A stretch of 64,000 bases of DNA from Fidelibacterota bacterium (GTDB lineage Bacteria > Fidelibacterota > UBA8477 > JABMPR01): contig JABIFG010000118.1 in the NCBI GenBank assembly GCA_018650795.1, positions 81,731-145,730 on the forward strand. Direction: 5' to 3'. The notes under the pieces were generated by a model. That model was given only the letters and a program-made list of their open reading frames with translations, was not told the origin of the DNA and did no database searches. Of this stretch, positions 13,750 through 24,271 are shown one piece after another. Both the position numbers and the translations under genes were made by a program. Numbering within the stretch: the stretch's first letter is position 1; the number at the start of each line of letters is the position of its first letter.

Positions 13750-13977
13750 TGTAGAAACTAAGAGCAGATTGATAAAAAGAAATCATTAAGGGGAATGGAA
13801 GGCAGGATTCTGTAGTTTGGTTTTAGCAATAAAAATATTTCCGCAATTACTATATGCAGGCACTATATTTGCAGCAGTATTAGCCTAGAGTAATAATTGC
13901 CAAATAGCACCAATCCCCTGAAGAAGCAATTATTTTGAGCATCTTGTTGAGATCAAAAATATTAAGGAGTTTTGAAT

Positions 13978-15276
13978 ATGTCATTATTAAAGAAAAAATT
14001 AGAAGAGATCATTCCTCAATTTCGTGAAGAAGTTGGTGAGATTCGCAAGAATCATGGGGATAAAAAATTATGTGATGTTACTGTTGCTCAGGCATATGGG
14101 GGTATGCGTGGTGTCAAAGTGATGATTACTGAAACCTCTGCATTGGATCCAGATGAAGGTATTCGCTTCCGCGGGTATACCATCCCTGAGCTCCAGGAAA
14201 AATTACCTCACGCTGCTGAAGGGGAAGAGCCTCTACCTGAAGGATTATTCTACCTGTTAATGACTGGCGAGCTCCCGACAGATGAGAATATTGCTGAGAT
14301 TACCAAGGAATGGCAAGCAAGGGGAACCCTTCCTGCGCACGTCTATAAAGCCATCGATGCTCTTCCTAAAGATACGCATCCAATGACACAGTTCTCTGTA
14401 GGTATAGTTGCACAACAAACCGAATCTATCTTCGCCGCAGAATACCGCGAAGGTATTAATAAAGCAGATTACTGGAAGCCAGTCTACGAAGATACGATGA
14501 ACCTGCTTGCTCGTCTCCCAGCTCTGGCAGCGTATATTTATCGTCGTTCCTATAAAGATGGCAAAGTTATTCCTGCAGATCCAACACTCGACTGGGGTGG
14601 CAACTTCGCACACATGATGGGTTTTGATACAAAGATGTTTAGAGAACTTATGAGAATTTATCTAACCATTCATGCTGACCATGAAGGCGGCAACGTGTCA
14701 GCTCACACGACACATCTTGTCGGATCCACTCTCTCAGATGTTTACTATGCCTTATCTGCTGGAATGAATGGTCTGGCAGGTCCACTGCATGGTCTGGCAA
14801 ATCAAGAAGTATTGCGCTGGATTATGGACGTGAAAGATCAGCTTGGTGGTGGAGTTCCAACCATGGAAGAATTGAAGAAATTTGTCTGGGATACACTTGC
14901 GTCTGGGAATGTCGTTCCTGGTTACGGTCATGCAGTACTCCGCAAAACAGACCCCCGTTACTCAGCCCAACGCGAATTTGCTTTAAAGCATATGCCTGAT
15001 GATGAACTCTTCCAGGTCGTGAGTATGCTATATGAAGTTGTTCCACCAATCTTACTGGAACAAGGCAAAGCCAAAAACCCATGGCCAAATGTGGATGCAC
15101 ATTCTGGTGTACTGCTGGTTCACAATGGTATGCATGAATATGATTTTTATACTGTGCTATTTGGTGTATCCCGTGCAATGGGTGTACTGGCTTCCACAAT
15201 CTGGGACAGAGCTATCGGTTTACCCCTGGAACGACCAAAATCACTTACAACTGAATACATTAAATCTATTTTATAA
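13978..15276 (+). CDS. gltA: Citrate synthase (mitochondrial-like type)
   Basis: 432 residues. The N-terminal text 'YGGMRGVKVMITETSALDPDEGIRFRGYTIPELQEKLP' is that of the eukaryote-like citrate synthases found in some FCB bacteria, not the shorter or hexameric E. coli type. Active-site residues are visible: His in 'GPLHGLANQEVL' (near 271), His in 'PGYGHAVLRKTDPR' (near 316) and Asp in 'NVDAHSGVLL' (near 372). It condenses acetyl-CoA and oxaloacetate. The ATG at 13978 has AAGGAG eight bases upstream, better than the TTG at 13972. A 228-base upstream gap should hold its promoter; a terminator follows. Confidence 0.95.
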   Translation: MSLLKKKLEEIIPQFREEVGEIRKNHGDKKLCDVTVAQAYGGMRGVKVMITETSALDPDEGIRFRGYTIPELQEKLPHAAEGEEPLPEGLFYLLMTGELPTDENIAEITKEWQARGTLPAHVYKAIDALPKDTHPMTQFSVGIVAQQTESIFAAEYREGINKADYWKPVYEDTMNLLARLPALAAYIYRRSYKDGKVIPADPTLDWGGNFAHMMGFDTKMFRELMRIYLTIHADHEGGNVSAHTTHLVGSTLSDVYYALSAGMNGLAGPLHGLANQEVLRWIMDVKDQLGGGVPTMEELKKFVWDTLASGNVVPGYGHAVLRKTDPRYSAQREFALKHMPDDELFQVVSMLYEVVPPILLEQGKAKNPWPNVDAHSGVLLVHNGMHEYDFYTVLFGVSRAMGVLASTIWDRAIGLPLERPKSLTTEYIKSIL

Positions 15277-15464: not shown

Positions 15465-15917
15465 ATGCAGTTAATAGATACGCGAGTACTCATCGTTGAA
15501 GATGAGATTGTAGTCGCCAGCGAAATTAAACTACGACTTGAGGCCATGGGATTTATGGTAATCGGTATCGTGAACAATGGTCGAGATGCTATAACAGCGG
15601 CTGATGAGCATTATCCAGATGTCATTCTAATGGACATTACTCTTAAAGGGAGCATGGATGGCCTCGAAGCCACTCGCGAGATCAGCCTAAAGTCAGATAT
15701 CCCAGTCATTTTCATTACAGCCCATACTGACACTCCAACACTTGATTCAGCTCGTGAAGCCAGTTCGCACGGAATATTCACGAAACCCTTCAGTGATGAT
15801 GAATTAATGGCGGCCATTCAACAGGCAACCATTTCAAAACTGATGACGACATATCTTGAAGCCGAGGATAAAAAGAAAGACGATGCGGACAATGCGGCAG
15901 GAGAAGCCGAGGACTAA
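15465..15917 (+). CDS. Stand-alone response regulator receiver protein
   Basis: 150 residues: one CheY-like receiver domain with acidic pocket 'VEDE' (Glu12, Asp13), phospho-acceptor Asp57 in 'ILMDITLKG', switch Thr in 'FITAH' and Lys in 'FTKPFS', then a charged tail ('EDKKKDDADNAAGEAED') in place of an output domain. The text 'GSMDGLEATREI' and the 'TLKGSMDG' loop resemble receivers that pair with PAS/histidine kinases. No kinase is adjacent; its target may be in trans. Convergent with the large acyl-CoA-synthetase fusion gene. Confidence 0.88.
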   Translation: MQLIDTRVLIVEDEIVVASEIKLRLEAMGFMVIGIVNNGRDAITAADEHYPDVILMDITLKGSMDGLEATREISLKSDIPVIFITAHTDTPTLDSAREASSHGIFTKPFSDDELMAAIQQATISKLMTTYLEAEDKKKDDADNAAGEAED

Positions 15918-15939: not shown

Positions 15940-18900
15940 TTATAAATATTTGACCAAACCCCCCTGGTCTTTTTCGATTGTAAATCCAAATTTGTAGAAA
16001 TATCCAGGATGGAGAAATCCTGTAGTAATCATCTTTTTCTTAGAATTTCTCATCCGATTTACGAATTCATTCAGTAGACCTCTACTGACACCTCCGCCTC
16101 GATGATTATCGGAGACTACAACTTTATCCATATAGACAACATCTTCCCCCTGATCAAGATAGAAAAGACCACCAATAACTCTGTTCTTCTTGTTCAATGC
16201 CACCAGGAATTTATGCTCATGAGTAAAATTGACATCCATACGCGCCTTTACGAAATGCTGTTGCAACTGGATAATTTCTTTCGGATGCATAGCCCTTCGG
16301 ATCCGGAAAGCAGTACCCTTGCTATCGTGCCTGGAGATCATAATTTCTATTTCATCCATGGCAGTTGAGCGTGTGGCAATGAGTTCGATATCTTCACTGG
16401 GTGGTAGCTCAGGGAAAGCCAAGCGTTTGAGAAAAAATGAACTATACTCATCCATTTCATTTGATCCGATATATTGACTGATCTCACTTTGGAGGGTTCC
16501 ACCATCCAAGGAAAGCTGTCGAAGGTTTCGTCCGAGGAGGGTCAGGTATTCCTTCAATTTTGCATCCGTGTCTGAGAATACCGTATTCAAAAACAACTGT
16601 ACGCGTGCATCCGGGTACTCTGGCTCACTATCCTGTATATTGTAATCCCGGTACAAGTCCTTCAAAAAGTGGGCTTTAGCATTCAGTGTGGCCCCCTGGT
16701 TGATAGAGAGCCAACGATGATAGCGACGTATGGCAAAGTAGACAGAATTAGGTTGGTAGCCATCGTCCTCAACGCTATCCAGGAATCTGAGAAGATCCTT
16801 ACGTCGAGCCGATGTAATCTTTTTGTCAGCGAGTATGCCCTTAAAGAAATCTATACTGTGTTTCTGTCCCAAGGCTTCTCTTATGGCGTGGTAAACAATT
16901 TCAGTCCCGACCTTGAGCATGAATGTTGGAAATTCTTTTTCGGTAGCCCTCACAAATAAACTTTCAAGATTCTCCATAAATTCAAGACCTGATGAAACTT
17001 CGGTAATACCGGAGATAGATACCAACCTGCCACCAACATGATAATCATGGATGGGGACCACAATCTTACCAGGGCTGGGATCCGAGATCATTTTCTTAAA
17101 TCGGGTACGTTTCCAGAAGCTTGTATAGGTTAGCACAGCGGTCCATACAAAATGAGGCCAGATATGCTCAGGGGCGGGCATCTCATCAGACGAACCTGCC
17201 CAGACTGCTTGTTTCAAATATTCTCTGACTGTCAGTCCAGAAATAAATTCTTCTGACCATAGATCTTGTTGCGGTTTATAGGATCCCAGAGTTTCAACCA
17301 GTTGATTGAATTGGTTATCAACTTCGCAGGCCATGAGCCAGAATAATTCAGTATAGATCTGTTCTGAACTCAATTCATCATTCAAGTTGAGAACAAACTT
17401 ATATCTGCCTTCAATACTCTGGATGGTTACTCGATATACAGTTTTCCCGTGAGCACTGCCAAGCAAGTTAATCCATATGCCTTGTGGAGGGATACTTCGC
17501 AGAGAAAGCTGTTTGCCCTCAAAAAATAGATAGATCGACTCATTCAGTATTGAGGTATTGATAAAGGCTGAGCTAATACGCTTACGATGCTTTGCTGGGA
17601 CTGGTTTATCAAAGAGTAAAACATCTTCCCAATCCAAAGTCTGCTCGTGGTGGATTTTGGTGGTATCTGGATCCATTTCCTGCATTGATTGTGAAAAACT
17701 ATCATTCAACGCCTCGTAGGAATTCAGGATTTGTTGTGTGATTTTACCTTTTGCGGGAAGATTGACAATAGAGCTAATCATGGCTGATCTAATGGTAGAG
17801 TAATATTGGGGGAATATTTTTGACCATGAAAAAAGAACCCCCAGAACATTTTCAAACAGAATTGATGATTCCTCAGTCCGAGATTCTTGGTATGATAACC
17901 ATTTCAGGTAATTCGATGCAAGTTTGACCTTATGAATATTGATATTTGACCAAGATGAGTTGCCAGAATTAATATTGAATAGTACTTTTCTTCCCAGCGC
18001 ATAGGTGACAATTCGTTCCAGGTCATTGGCGGGGAAGAGTGCAACCACCTGTTCCACGGCGAATTGAGCTTGAACAAGATCATCAGAACGAATGAGACGC
18101 AGGAAGGCATATCGAACAATGTGTCTGATGCTTTCACTCGAATTTGAATAAATTCGGTTCAAGAGGCGGAAAGCAGCTTGAGAAGGATGTAGACTTTGTG
18201 AGTAAACTAATAATATGACCGGTTTCAACGCTTCAATTGAGTAGTCCGAATGGTTCAGGGCTTTTTCAACTTCAGCTTCAGCTTGCTGTTTGTCCTCATC
18301 GGTAATCTCCAGATCAACCCAGGTGCCTGGAAGCAGATCAGGTCTTTTGTTGACAGGCTTTATTCTTAAATGAGCATAGTCCAGAAATTCTTCCAATTCC
18401 CGATTACCAAGACAATAAGCAGGTTGACGAATGAAATCTTCAAACTGGAGAATATTGCCTTCGAATTGATAAAAAAGTGCCCCAATACGGATTTCGTTTT
18501 CCCCGGGCTCAATTCTCAAAGAATGTCGTTTATTCCTATGCTTGAGAATTCGATCTTTTATAACCAGATCATTTTGTGTCCAACCACGCTGAAGAAATAC
18601 CCAATTTGGGATTTGGATCTCCAAGCCTTCCATAAAAAATGATTTGTATGGTCGTTCATAAAGTGACTCTACAGTGGATTTAAAATGTTCCAGAATAGCG
18701 CTACGTTTAAATGTCCCTTTTTCAGTCAGCTCACCTAAATCCTTTTTGAAGTCCCGGTCGACCTGGCGGAAATCAACAATTCTTTCAAACGGAGCTAAAA
18801 ATGAATTTACAGAATGAATGACATTACCAACATAGTCTCGAACTTTTTGTCGATCTGACCAGATGCTCTTAAGATCTTTGTGTTTCTTGTTCAGCCTGAC

Positions 18901-20577
18901 GAGTGCAGTATTATAGGGCATATGATCGCCGACAATAAAGAGCTGATGGATACTCTCAAAATCTCTGAACATATTTTCGATTTTTTGTGGGGCAATAGTT
19001 TGACCCTTAGCATTTTTGTAAATTTCTTTTTTACGATCAATGATTTCGATCTGGCCATTGTCCAGGGACTGGAAGATATCCCCAGTAGTAAACCATCCAT
19101 CCGGACGTTCATCTGGCTCAGTAGGATTCCAGTAACTGCCTGATACATAGGCGCCCCGGATCCATAACTCTCCATCCTCGACCAGTTTTATTTCCATACC
19201 GGGCAGGGGAATACCTACTGAGTTTTCGATATATCCATCGGTGGGCGTCATGGTGATACCACCAGTAGCTTCAGTCATTCCATAACCACTATGCAGGTGT
19301 AAATCATAAGCCTGGAAAAACCGAAATATCTCAGGAGGTAAATATCCTGCTGCAGAGAGTCCCCAACGCAAAGCACCACCGGTCACTTCTTTCACTCCCT
19401 TAGAAATATTAGAGGACTCATCGTTCACGAGATCAACACTTGCACCAATGGTGTCATAGATGTCCTGCCAGCGTTTAGGAATGCTGATCAGCACAGTAGG
19501 TTTGATGGCTTTGAGGTCGCTGAGGAGCGATTGAATTCCTTTTCCGCTGGAGAAAGTATATTCAGCGCCCCAGAATATTGAACCCCACATTTCTAAAAAT
19601 CTACCAAAAGTGTGAAAGAGGGGCAAAAAGCAAAGAAAACGATCTTCAGTGCCCAGGTTCAGTGCCAGGCTTCGGGCAAATCTTTTGGAAATGATATTCT
19701 CATAAGTGAAAACAATACCCTTCGGATACCCTGTTGTGCCTGAAGTATACATGATACTGGCAATATTAGAGAGGGATACAGAAAGTCGTATACCTTCCAA
19801 CCAATCAAGTGCCTCGGCTGAACCACCTTCATCAATCAACCGCTTATATGATTTCACCATCGGGTTGGTCGTAGCAACACTATTGTAGGTAATGATATGC
19901 TTTATCGCTGGTAGCTTGGGAAGGATACTTTCAATGGAACGCAAATGTTGTGAGTCAGAAATGAAAATTCCCTCAATCTCAGCATGGGCGAGGATATACT
20001 CGACTTGAGCCGGGGGAGCAGCTGGTTGGATAGGAACATTCACGAAGCCATACGTTAGACAGGCGATATCTGTAATGGCAACTTCCAGACGGTTTTCAGA
20101 AAGTATGGCAATACGAGGACTGGTACTGCCCATAAGATCAATGAGTGCTGCTGCCAGGTGGTTGGCAGATTGCTGAACGGCTGACCAGGATTGTTGTTGC
20201 CACTGGCGACCCCGCTTGAAATTAAAAAGGGTTTTGTTCCCCAACTGTGCGGCCTTGCGATTAAAGAGATGACCAGGTGTGTATTTGAGTTTCCGCACCA
20301 GCTCCATTTCGAGCTGGAACCATTCATTCTGGATGTTACAGGCTTTGATAAGTGAGGTGAAAGCTGGATTCCAGCCTTGCTCTAAAAGGAAGGTCAGACT
20401 TCTTTGACTTCCAGTTCCAAGAATATGATCAGCATATTTGAGAAGATTGTTGGACCAGGTTTCCAGGTCCTGAGGTGGTTGAACCTCAAAATCTTTGAAA
20501 TATTGGACCAGTGCGGTTTCCTGCTGAACAGGGTCTACATCCACATTATCCAAGAGATCATGTAGTGAATCTTTCAA
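15940..20577 (-). CDS. Acyl-CoA synthetase (AMP-binding) / large helical region / GNAT fusion
   Basis: This is a very large 1545-residue protein. Residues ~1-100 are unassigned. Residues ~110-640 are a long-chain acyl-CoA synthetase-like adenylation domain: 'MYTSGTTGYPKG' (P-loop, near 276), 'GYGMTEATGG' (near 429), 'GDIFQSLDNGQIEIIDRKKEIYKNAKGQTIAP' (hinge and C-terminal lysine, near 525). Residues ~650-1400 are a mostly helical region I do not recognise. The last ~130 residues are a GNAT acyltransferase domain with the acyl-CoA loop 'NHRGGGVSRGLL' and an ending 'GFLHPGYFYKFGF'. No carrier-protein serine motif is seen, so it is not an NRPS. The domain order suggests that acyl-CoA made at one end may be used by the other. 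The product is unknown. It is a single uninterrupted frame. Confidence 0.85.
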   Translation of the reverse strand: MKDSLHDLLDNVDVDPVQQETALVQYFKDFEVQPPQDLETWSNNLLKYADHILGTGSQRSLTFLLEQGWNPAFTSLIKACNIQNEWFQLEMELVRKLKYTPGHLFNRKAAQLGNKTLFNFKRGRQWQQQSWSAVQQSANHLAAALIDLMGSTSPRIAILSENRLEVAITDIACLTYGFVNVPIQPAAPPAQVEYILAHAEIEGIFISDSQHLRSIESILPKLPAIKHIITYNSVATTNPMVKSYKRLIDEGGSAEALDWLEGIRLSVSLSNIASIMYTSGTTGYPKGIVFTYENIISKRFARSLALNLGTEDRFLCFLPLFHTFGRFLEMWGSIFWGAEYTFSSGKGIQSLLSDLKAIKPTVLISIPKRWQDIYDTIGASVDLVNDESSNISKGVKEVTGGALRWGLSAAGYLPPEIFRFFQAYDLHLHSGYGMTEATGGITMTPTDGYIENSVGIPLPGMEIKLVEDGELWIRGAYVSGSYWNPTEPDERPDGWFTTGDIFQSLDNGQIEIIDRKKEIYKNAKGQTIAPQKIENMFRDFESIHQLFIVGDHMPYNTALVRLNKKHKDLKSIWSDRQKVRDYVGNVIHSVNSFLAPFERIVDFRQVDRDFKKDLGELTEKGTFKRSAILEHFKSTVESLYERPYKSFFMEGLEIQIPNWVFLQRGWTQNDLVIKDRILKHRNKRHSLRIEPGENEIRIGALFYQFEGNILQFEDFIRQPAYCLGNRELEEFLDYAHLRIKPVNKRPDLLPGTWVDLEITDEDKQQAEAEVEKALNHSDYSIEALKPVILLVYSQSLHPSQAAFRLLNRIYSNSSESIRHIVRYAFLRLIRSDDLVQAQFAVEQVVALFPANDLERIVTYALGRKVLFNINSGNSSWSNINIHKVKLASNYLKWLSYQESRTEESSILFENVLGVLFSWSKIFPQYYSTIRSAMISSIVNLPAKGKITQQILNSYEALNDSFSQSMQEMDPDTTKIHHEQTLDWEDVLLFDKPVPAKHRKRISSAFINTSILNESIYLFFEGKQLSLRSIPPQGIWINLLGSAHGKTVYRVTIQSIEGRYKFVLNLNDELSSEQIYTELFWLMACEVDNQFNQLVETLGSYKPQQDLWSEEFISGLTVREYLKQAVWAGSSDEMPAPEHIWPHFVWTAVLTYTSFWKRTRFKKMISDPSPGKIVVPIHDYHVGGRLVSISGITEVSSGLEFMENLESLFVRATEKEFPTFMLKVGTEIVYHAIREALGQKHSIDFFKGILADKKITSARRKDLLRFLDSVEDDGYQPNSVYFAIRRYHRWLSINQGATLNAKAHFLKDLYRDYNIQDSEPEYPDARVQLFLNTVFSDTDAKLKEYLTLLGRNLRQLSLDGGTLQSEISQYIGSNEMDEYSSFFLKRLAFPELPPSEDIELIATRSTAMDEIEIMISRHDSKGTAFRIRRAMHPKEIIQLQQHFVKARMDVNFTHEHKFLVALNKKNRVIGGLFYLDQGEDVVYMDKVVVSDNHRGGGVSRGLLNEFVNRMRNSKKKMITTGFLHPGYFYKFGFTIEKDQGGLVKYL

Positions 20578-22276
<1,699 letters not shown>

Positions 22277-22447: not shown

Positions 22448-24271
22448 TTAAGCCTCTGTGGGCACTTCCTTGCTGATTTTAGCTTTAAAATTTGTATAAA
22501 TCTCTTCCAAGCGCTGCCCCTGTTTCTCAATCGCTTCACTTAGTGAAGGAAGATTTTCACCAGGGTAGGAATGCCCCTTGGCGATGGTTTTGCAATATTC
22601 AAAACCCCTGGTCATATTGTCATAGAAAGCATGTAGAGAAGGATATTCTTTAGGTCCCATGGTATCTTGAATACGAGTACGAAAGTGATCGACATAGAGC
22701 TGAATTTCTTTAGCAAACATATGCGGACGATCGGAAGAAAGCAATTCTTTACCACGGCCATAGATCTGATCTACCAATTCTTCCAGAGAATAATTCCGGG
22801 TAAACCATGAGAGATTTGGTCCAGGACAAATAGCCTGTGGCGATCGCTTTGCGGGAACGATTCCCAGACTGATGAGAGCTCCATTACCCAGATGCTCACA
22901 TAGACATGTTTTGGCTAATACGTTATTGATCGCTGTTTCTTTTTCAGATCCAGGCTCAATAGTCGATTCAATTTCTGCCAGTTTGTGAGTCATATATTCC
23001 GAAGAGGCTGTACAAATTGGTAGCTCTGTAAACTCAGTATTGGAAACAAGGAATCCCTTGGGGCATGCTGAACCAGGTTTTCCCTGGAGGTACCGTTTCT
23101 TGGACCATTTTTCAGAGCCAGAATCCTTTAAATTGTTGAAAGGAACTCCCAGGGGAGATGCACCACTCAAATAGAGACTGTCATCAGTAGAATTCATGAG
23201 CTGCATACGTGTTACTGTATCAATGGGCGTGGCTTCCGGTACCAACAGAAAAGGACTGGCCCATCCAGTGCGATCCATACCAAAATCTTTTTCTAATCTC
23301 TGGGCCTCACCATTATTACCAATGCCACCCTGAACAGTAATCTCAGGGTGATGTTCAAGGTTCTCCGGGTAGCTCCACCCCATTTTATCGTAGAAGCGTT
23401 TGATAATAGGCTGGAATTGTGTGCCTAATTCAGCACGTTTATCCTTGAAATCCTGGAGTAGGATAGGTAATAAATGACCTGGAGATGCAAAGGCGTGACC
23501 TCCACAATTCAATCCAGATTCAATTCTAAATTCTGATATTTCCAAGCCCTTCTTCGCCATATAGCGACCTTGAATCATGGCGGATCTAAAATCACTGACT
23601 TTCAGGATGATCTTCTTCTTAATCTCACCTTGCTGGTCACGATAAAAATCTTGATACTTTGTCATGTAACCATACAAACTTTGATTGATTCCAGCAGAAA
23701 AAACCATAGCTGAATCAAGCTTGCTTTTCGCAAACCCTCGTAGGGCAGCTTTTGCATCTGAAAAACCTTCACCCATGGGTTTGCCATGTTTATCCATATC
23801 AATACGATCCACTTTGACCATAATATTGACATCGATTCCACCTGGTTGCATTCTATGCGATAACTCTTTGGAAATCTTATCGCGTAATTCGCCTGGTTTT
23901 GTGGCCATGAGATCGTGATAAGCCTTTTTAAGCGTACTTGTATCAGGCAGCAGTTCGAAGTAGCGAGTTTTTTCATTTTTCTCAAAAAATGGGAGAGAAC
24001 GGACGTGATCCATCTTCATCTCAACGATATCATGGACCATGTCCAAATAGGCTGTAATGCGCTTGGCACGACCATCCTCTTCACGGGCAGAGATACGTTC
24101 AAACGGTAAATCATATTTTGAGGTGTAAAATTTCCTTAAACGTTCCAACAAAATATCATCAATAATAGATATGACTGAAGTGATTCCTAAATGGGCCAGG
24201 CGTATAGGTGTGTCGATTGAATGGCCAGTTCCCATTACGGGTATATGAAAATTATGTGTTGTATCTGTCAC
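22448..24271 (-). CDS. Conserved-looking 607-aa protein of unknown function, cysteine-rich C-half
   Basis: I do not recognise a named family. The N-terminal part begins 'FHIPVMGTGHSIDTPIRLAHLGITSVISIIDD', which reads like a barrel enzyme entrance strand, and the middle has 'SGLNCGGHAFASPGHLLPILLQDF' and 'EITVQGGIGNNGEAQRLEKDFGMDRTGWASPFLLVPEATPID', whose glycine pattern recalls FMN/TIM-barrel enzymes such as nitronate monooxygenase or enoyl reductase. The second half has clustered cysteines: 'ACPKGF', 'PICTASSEY', 'KTCLCEHLGNGAL', 'AICPGPN', which could ligate a metal or Fe-S cluster. No signal peptide, so cytoplasmic. It stands alone with its own terminator. An oxidoreductase is my guess only. 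Confidence 0.7.
   Translation of the reverse strand: MTDTTHNFHIPVMGTGHSIDTPIRLAHLGITSVISIIDDILLERLRKFYTSKYDLPFERISAREEDGRAKRITAYLDMVHDIVEMKMDHVRSLPFFEKNEKTRYFELLPDTSTLKKAYHDLMATKPGELRDKISKELSHRMQPGGIDVNIMVKVDRIDMDKHGKPMGEGFSDAKAALRGFAKSKLDSAMVFSAGINQSLYGYMTKYQDFYRDQQGEIKKKIILKVSDFRSAMIQGRYMAKKGLEISEFRIESGLNCGGHAFASPGHLLPILLQDFKDKRAELGTQFQPIIKRFYDKMGWSYPENLEHHPEITVQGGIGNNGEAQRLEKDFGMDRTGWASPFLLVPEATPIDTVTRMQLMNSTDDSLYLSGASPLGVPFNNLKDSGSEKWSKKRYLQGKPGSACPKGFLVSNTEFTELPICTASSEYMTHKLAEIESTIEPGSEKETAINNVLAKTCLCEHLGNGALISLGIVPAKRSPQAICPGPNLSWFTRNYSLEELVDQIYGRGKELLSSDRPHMFAKEIQLYVDHFRTRIQDTMGPKEYPSLHAFYDNMTRGFEYCKTIAKGHSYPGENLPSLSEAIEKQGQRLEEIYTNFKAKISKEVPTEA

Follow-up and report, generated by a model that had tools for sequence, protein, structure and literature searches.

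A five-part bacterial protein combining an AMP-forming synthetase domain, an alpha-solenoid, a probable pseudokinase and a GNAT domain, linked in several lineages to citrate synthase

Introduction

Bacterial type I acetyltransferases combine a synthetase-like domain with a GNAT domain (PMC8556138), and the synthetase-like domain of the Pat-type enzymes is NDP-forming and inactive (PMC8556138, PMC11254643). Acetylation of citrate synthase is reported to alter the activity of this enzyme in E. coli (review PMC11254643). In the known synthetase-linked bacterial acetyltransferases, the synthetase is inactive and acts as a sensor. Here we describe a protein family in which an AMP-forming synthetase that is apparently active is instead joined to a GNAT domain, together with a probable pseudokinase and a solenoid; the phyla that carry it have few cultured members. 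A literature search of open-access papers found no description of this five-part architecture. Starting from the representative encoded in a 64,000-nucleotide stretch of DNA (hereafter the window), we computed the domain order, the folds, the conservation of synthetase residues, the loss of kinase residues, the recurrence in three bacterial groups and the linkage to citrate synthase.

Results

An intact gene transcribed alone

The gene occupies 15940..20577 of the window on the minus strand and encodes 1545 amino acids from a TTG start. The frame contains no internal stop. The start is preceded by a good ribosome site (aaggagaagg) and its position is common to relatives, GTG being found at exactly the corresponding position in 10 of the 10 near relatives examined. 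On the 3' side lies a convergent response-regulator gene (15465-15917) after a gap of 22 bases, and on the 5' side a divergent glutamate dehydrogenase gene (20936-22276) after a gap of 358 bases. Because both neighbours are on the opposite strand, the fusion gene is transcribed alone, in accordance with the earlier description of it, from the sequence only, as transcribed alone and intact.

A pattern scan revealed a hairpin with T-tracts at the convergent gene end (15952-15969), terminator-like on both strands; it falls within the last codons of the fusion gene and is possibly a terminator common to both convergent genes. Elsewhere in the window, 22448-24271 (minus strand) encodes a 607-residue protein without Pfam or NCBIfam match that is found at the same position in at least 12 relatives, and in the same relatives a protein of ~1000 residues is encoded further upstream of it.

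Domain order and distribution of the family

Pfam assigned AMP-binding to residues 105-483 (E 3.6e-64), AMP-binding_C_3 to residues 524-642 (E 1.4e-10) and a GNAT domain to residues about 1436-1533 (Acetyltransf_1, E 4.1e-5). No other Pfam family in the 1545-residue protein passed the cut-off, and residues about 645-1415 were without assignment, which matches the about 750 unassigned residues reported previously. Residues 1-100 form an N-terminal extension (20278..20577, minus strand), of which residues 1-50 are weakly conserved in the conservation profile. PADLOC gave no match to anti-phage defence. The sequence-only reading had also stated that there is no carrier protein, and we indeed observed neither a Pfam PP-binding match in the window protein nor carrier-protein families among the 25 commonest families of 54 relatives; a carrier protein between the two enzymes was dropped on these grounds.

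When a single genome was scanned for each species, full-length relatives turned up in Neomarinimicrobiota, KSB1 and Acidobacteria. Among 149 sampled genomes of Neomarinimicrobiota, the phylum of the window, over 50 gave strong matches, and 10 of 82 KSB1 genomes contain full-length relatives. For Acidobacteria the fusion was found in 21 of 247 genomes, in 17 of 41 of one class and in 27 of 142 of another, more than 40 in total. The gene is nearly always single copy per genome in the KSB1 and Acidobacteria samples, and the aligned full-length relatives span about 1420 to 1629 residues. The whole domain order is kept in all three groups, so that the search proposed earlier for the same order, together with the single frame and the Pfam domains at both ends, bears out the 1545-residue acyl-CoA synthetase-GNAT fusion. 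The fragmentation of the window's assembly (355 contigs) could speak for a misassembly or for a degenerate join without meaning. However, dozens of independent assemblies from three bacterial groups, nearly all without stops, show the same length and order, and the recurrence of both at 30-40% identity in other genomes excludes a fusion made by chance or by assembly and leaves this explanation with almost no probability.

Residues 640-1545 had no match in 198 genomes of the phylum of Syntrophaceae or in 249 genomes of the alphaproteobacterial phylum. Homologues from Syntrophaceae and Pelagibacter-like bacteria were rejected as full relatives, their similarity being confined to the synthetase domain.

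The synthetase domain

The AMP-binding (ANL) large domain (residues 105-483; 19129..20265, minus strand), defined by Pfam PF00501 and motif conservation, carries A3 as YTSGTTGYPKG and A5 as YGMTE, and is followed by the ANL C-terminal domain (residues 524-642; 18652..19008, minus strand; PF23562). Across 76 members, motifs A3, A5, A7 and A8 are invariant or nearly so, as are T278, S279, G280 and K286 of the nucleotide loop, T435, E436, D500, R515, K517, K521, T618, K620 and R625. Lys620, which lies in the sequence LTEKGTFKR, is present in 76 of 76 members and is A10-like, an assignment made from its position. Judged from these residues, the N-terminal AMP-forming synthetase is apparently active. 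In profile searches, adenylation domains of carboxylic acid reductases and the coronafacate ligase Cfl are among the solved structures that score best, and for this reason the acid used by the synthetase would probably be fatty or bulky rather than acetate.

The same residues bear on whether the protein is a sensor like Pat and PatZ, an acetyltransferase whose synthetase domain would only bind ligands and set the activity of the GNAT domain. The broad layout, a synthetase-like domain followed by a GNAT, is that of type I acetyltransferases (PMC8556138), and PatZ (9it0) is among the structural matches of the GNAT domain. However, the synthetase here belongs to another superfamily, the AMP-forming ANL enzymes. 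Its catalytic motifs show little or no variation, in contrast to the inactive domains of Pat, and we therefore regard such a sensor as unlikely.

The middle region

Residues 640-1545 were modelled by AlphaFold2 with 54 family members, giving a mean pLDDT of 86. In the model, a beta segment is followed by paired helices (760-970) and a mixed domain (985-1286), and further helices lead to the GNAT domain. The beta segment (residues 650-735; 18373..18630, minus strand), delimited by conservation and by DSSP of the model, matches no family, and P657, W659, G699, Y703, G724 and N725 are nearly invariant in it; it could serve as a docking or acceptor site. The paired helices of the model form an alpha-solenoid of HEAT/ARM-like type (residues 760-970; 17668..18300, minus strand), for which profile searches gave weak matches to engineered helical-repeat proteins.

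Since the match list of the GNAT was uninformative on the middle region, residues 985-1345 were folded alone with 68 relatives and then searched, and the resulting model of the mixed domain (residues 985-1286; 16720..17625, minus strand) had a pLDDT of 92.7 and a pTM of 0.90. Foldseek matched it to protein kinases (E 8e-7), and VIA-align gave Z scores of 13.0 to PRPK, 12.7 to Bud32, 11.7 to RIO1 and about 11 to 5-methylthioribose kinase, choline kinase and JAK2. As sequence-profile searches of this part against PDB and Pfam gave nothing convincing, the kinase fold is revealed by fold comparison only. The segment LGSxHGKxVYR resembles a glycine loop. With positions taken from predicted secondary structure rather than residue-level superposition, most of 76 members have Asn1064 in place of the beta-3 lysine, the position of the HRD aspartate (1166) is Asp in under half of them, and the DFG position (1187-1189) holds Ser, Ala or Thr without Asp. 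We had considered HDY (D1178) as the DFG motif and dropped it, because the predicted strands put the DFG position at 1186-1190, where there is no Asp. With the usual lysine and both catalytic aspartates missing, residues 985-1286 are probably a pseudokinase.

A helical linker (residues 1287-1415; 16333..16719, minus strand), defined by the model and by conservation, leads to the GNAT domain; W1289 is nearly invariant and R1325 invariant in it. The middle is not a single helical domain, and the earlier description of it as an unknown helical domain is partly incorrect: of its 750 residues, about 300 form the protein-kinase fold, about 210 the alpha-solenoid and about 85 the beta segment.

The GNAT domain

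The C-terminal GNAT domain (residues 1416-1545; 15943..16332, minus strand) was identified by Pfam and by structure comparison. Its model aligns over 131 residues with YhbS (4rs2; Z 16.0, rmsd 1.7), and further matches include ArgA and Tetrahymena GCN5 (both Z 15.6), PCAF (about 15) and the GNAT of S. lividans PAT in complex with the C-terminal domain of acetyl-CoA synthetase (4u5y; Z 13.4). Gly1470 and Arg1508 are found in 76 of 76 members, and 75 of 76 have an acidic residue (Asp or Glu) at position 1484 in beta-4. In the window protein motif A reads R1493-GG-G1496-V-S1498, with Ser where R/Q-x-x-G-x-G/A expects G or A. Among the 76 members, R or Q is kept in 63 and S, G or A at position 1498 in 75, and G1496 is present in 47. 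Because this P-loop glycine is replaced in the other 29, some members may not bind CoA well.

A GNAT lacking acyl-CoA-binding geometry had been named in advance as evidence against a synthetase and an N-acyltransferase in one chain; so far as fold and motif tell, the window protein does not lack it. That proposal is supported by fold and conserved catalytic residues; in some clades the CoA loop of the GNAT is degenerate.

Genomic surroundings

A citrate synthase gene (13972..15276, plus strand; Pfam PF00285) is a recurrent neighbour of the fusion gene in several lineages. It is the adjacent convergent gene in the window's family and in a sister family, both of Neomarinimicrobiota; in the window, the small response-regulator gene sits between the two. 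Citrate synthase and glutamate dehydrogenase lie on opposite flanks of the fusion gene throughout the genus. Among Acidobacteria, citrate synthase adjoins the fusion gene in five members (L132, L134, L135, L185 and L187) and is 2.6 kb away in L186. The citrate synthase gene of L149 lies upstream in divergent orientation, and KSB1 member L025 has beside the fusion gene a distant citrate synthase (28% identical) with isocitrate dehydrogenase after it. Other members have the fusion gene beside acetate kinase (L144 and L145) or beside class I fumarase (L143, L150 and L198). In the last three, which are Acidobacteria, the fumarase adjoins a protein of 315 residues that carries the P-loop motif GSGKST and lacks a Pfam match (L143:14817-15761, L150:13280-14227, L198:12834-13778).

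Citrate synthase is absent beside the fusion gene in 32 Neomarinimicrobiota members outside the window's order and in many Acidobacteria members. Mapped on a 94-member tree, the presence of citrate synthase beside the gene requires 6 changes, and the linkage is either old with several losses or repeatedly gained; the distant citrate synthase of L025 and the different orientation in L149 speak for independent origins in some cases. The only candidates for a conserved operon partner in the other Neomarinimicrobiota were opposite-strand genes of cytochrome-oxidase type and transporter-like genes, named by eye. Outside the window's order, L092, L084, L098 and related members have on one side a divergent gene of roughly 570 residues and then a transporter-like gene, and on the other side a convergent run resembling, by eye, cytochrome-oxidase assembly genes.

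A lipid or signalling system, as suggested in the sequence-only reading, finds no support in these surroundings. The neighbours (citrate synthase, isocitrate dehydrogenase, fumarase and acetate kinase) instead indicate the TCA cycle and acetyl-CoA, a neighbour category that was defined post hoc, after the data had been seen. In a related explanation, the ANL domain would make a fatty acyl-CoA and the GNAT would N-acylate a small amine, such as an amino acid or polyamine, to give a lipid or signal. It is consistent with catalytic modules that look intact at both ends, with the close fold match of the GNAT to ArgA, which acetylates glutamate, and with glutamate dehydrogenase as divergent neighbour in the window's genus. 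However, transporter, lipid and biosynthetic genes do not recur next to the fusion gene across lineages, Pfam matched the protein to no long-chain N-acyltransferase family, and the modules of protein-interaction type would be left idle; we consider a small N-acylated product rather improbable.

The acetyl-CoA neighbourhood also fits a regulatory role in cis. Here the synthetase would be the business end, the GNAT would acetylate it, for example at Lys620, and so switch it off when acetyl-CoA is plentiful, and the kinase-fold domain and solenoid would position or sense. Pat and AcuA acting in trans on acetyl-CoA synthetase offer a parallel, the S. lividans complex noted above is among the structural matches, and the host genome encodes a sirtuin, as reversal would need. 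On the other hand, targets of Pat carry the motif PxxxxGK, from which the sequence around Lys620 differs, and a 600-residue scaffold seems too much for self-modification. Cis-regulation is thus conceivable, if somewhat doubtful.

Discussion

The anatomy of this five-part protein is well supported. For its function, we infer both enzyme activities, any channelling between them and a protein target. It is likely that the protein has two activities, because the synthetase residues are invariant and the GNAT is sound, and acyl-CoA might be made and spent within one chain. We tentatively prefer, at less than even probability, a multidomain protein acyltransferase with a built-in supply of acyl-CoA, aimed at the node of the TCA cycle and acetyl-CoA. 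The ANL domain would convert a carboxylic acid, fatty or bulky, with ATP and CoA to acyl-CoA; the alpha-solenoid and the kinase-fold domain, probably non-phosphorylating, would serve to bind a partner protein or to sense a nucleotide; and the GNAT would move an acyl group, either the product of the ANL domain or acetyl from acetyl-CoA, onto an amine. The acceptor would most likely be a lysine of an enzyme of this node, e.g. citrate synthase, a best guess made because the middle modules usually bind proteins and the neighbours are TCA/acetyl-CoA enzymes. The sirtuin of the host and the reported effect of acetylation on E. coli citrate synthase also fit such an enzyme. Counting against an acyltransferase of this kind, the neighbour is usually convergent rather than co-transcribed and is missing in many members, the linkage may be old synteny, and the replaced P-loop glycine may impair CoA binding in some members. 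Overall we rank protein acylation first, followed by cis-regulation, a small N-acyl product and a sensor.

A more specific and more speculative form, to which we give a low probability, is a self-fuelling acylase that passes its own acyl-CoA in-chain to the GNAT, picks targets with the solenoid and pseudokinase, and acylates citrate synthase to set carbon flow. If true, it would add a new type to the five recognised kinds of bacterial protein acyltransferase. Acylation of citrate synthase or neighbouring enzymes would amount to a dedicated switch on the entry of carbon into the TCA cycle, with the acyl donor both made and consumed by a single protein, and the citrate synthase link supplies a concrete candidate target.

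Comparison with known systems

Like Pat, PatZ/YfiQ and PatA (type I/II), the window protein is a large single chain in which a part related to acyl-CoA synthetases is joined to a GNAT, with a link to acetyl-CoA metabolism (PMC8556138, PMC11254643). The synthetase part of those enzymes is NDP-forming and inactive, whereas that of the window protein is an AMP-binding ANL domain, and for this reason it is not a member of the Pat/PatZ group. The known enzymes also lack an alpha-solenoid and a kinase fold, and have 700-900 residues plus GNAT compared with 1545 here. Residues 105-642 hold all core motifs of ANL acyl-CoA synthetases and of carboxylic acid reductase adenylation domains; unlike carboxylic acid reductases and NRPS, the window protein has no carrier or reductase domain after them and carries about 900 extra residues. 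Residues 985-1286 share the fold of Bud32/PRPK, RIO and aminoglycoside-phosphotransferase-like kinases (Z 11-13), but are without the beta-3 lysine (Asn1064) and the DFG Asp, do not conserve the HRD Asp and match no sequence family. Finally, AcuA and Pat acting on AMP-forming acetyl-CoA synthetase likewise pair a GNAT with an AMP-forming synthetase, but as two separate proteins, whereas the window protein unites the two in one chain, with a synthetase of another subfamily and without PxxxxGK.
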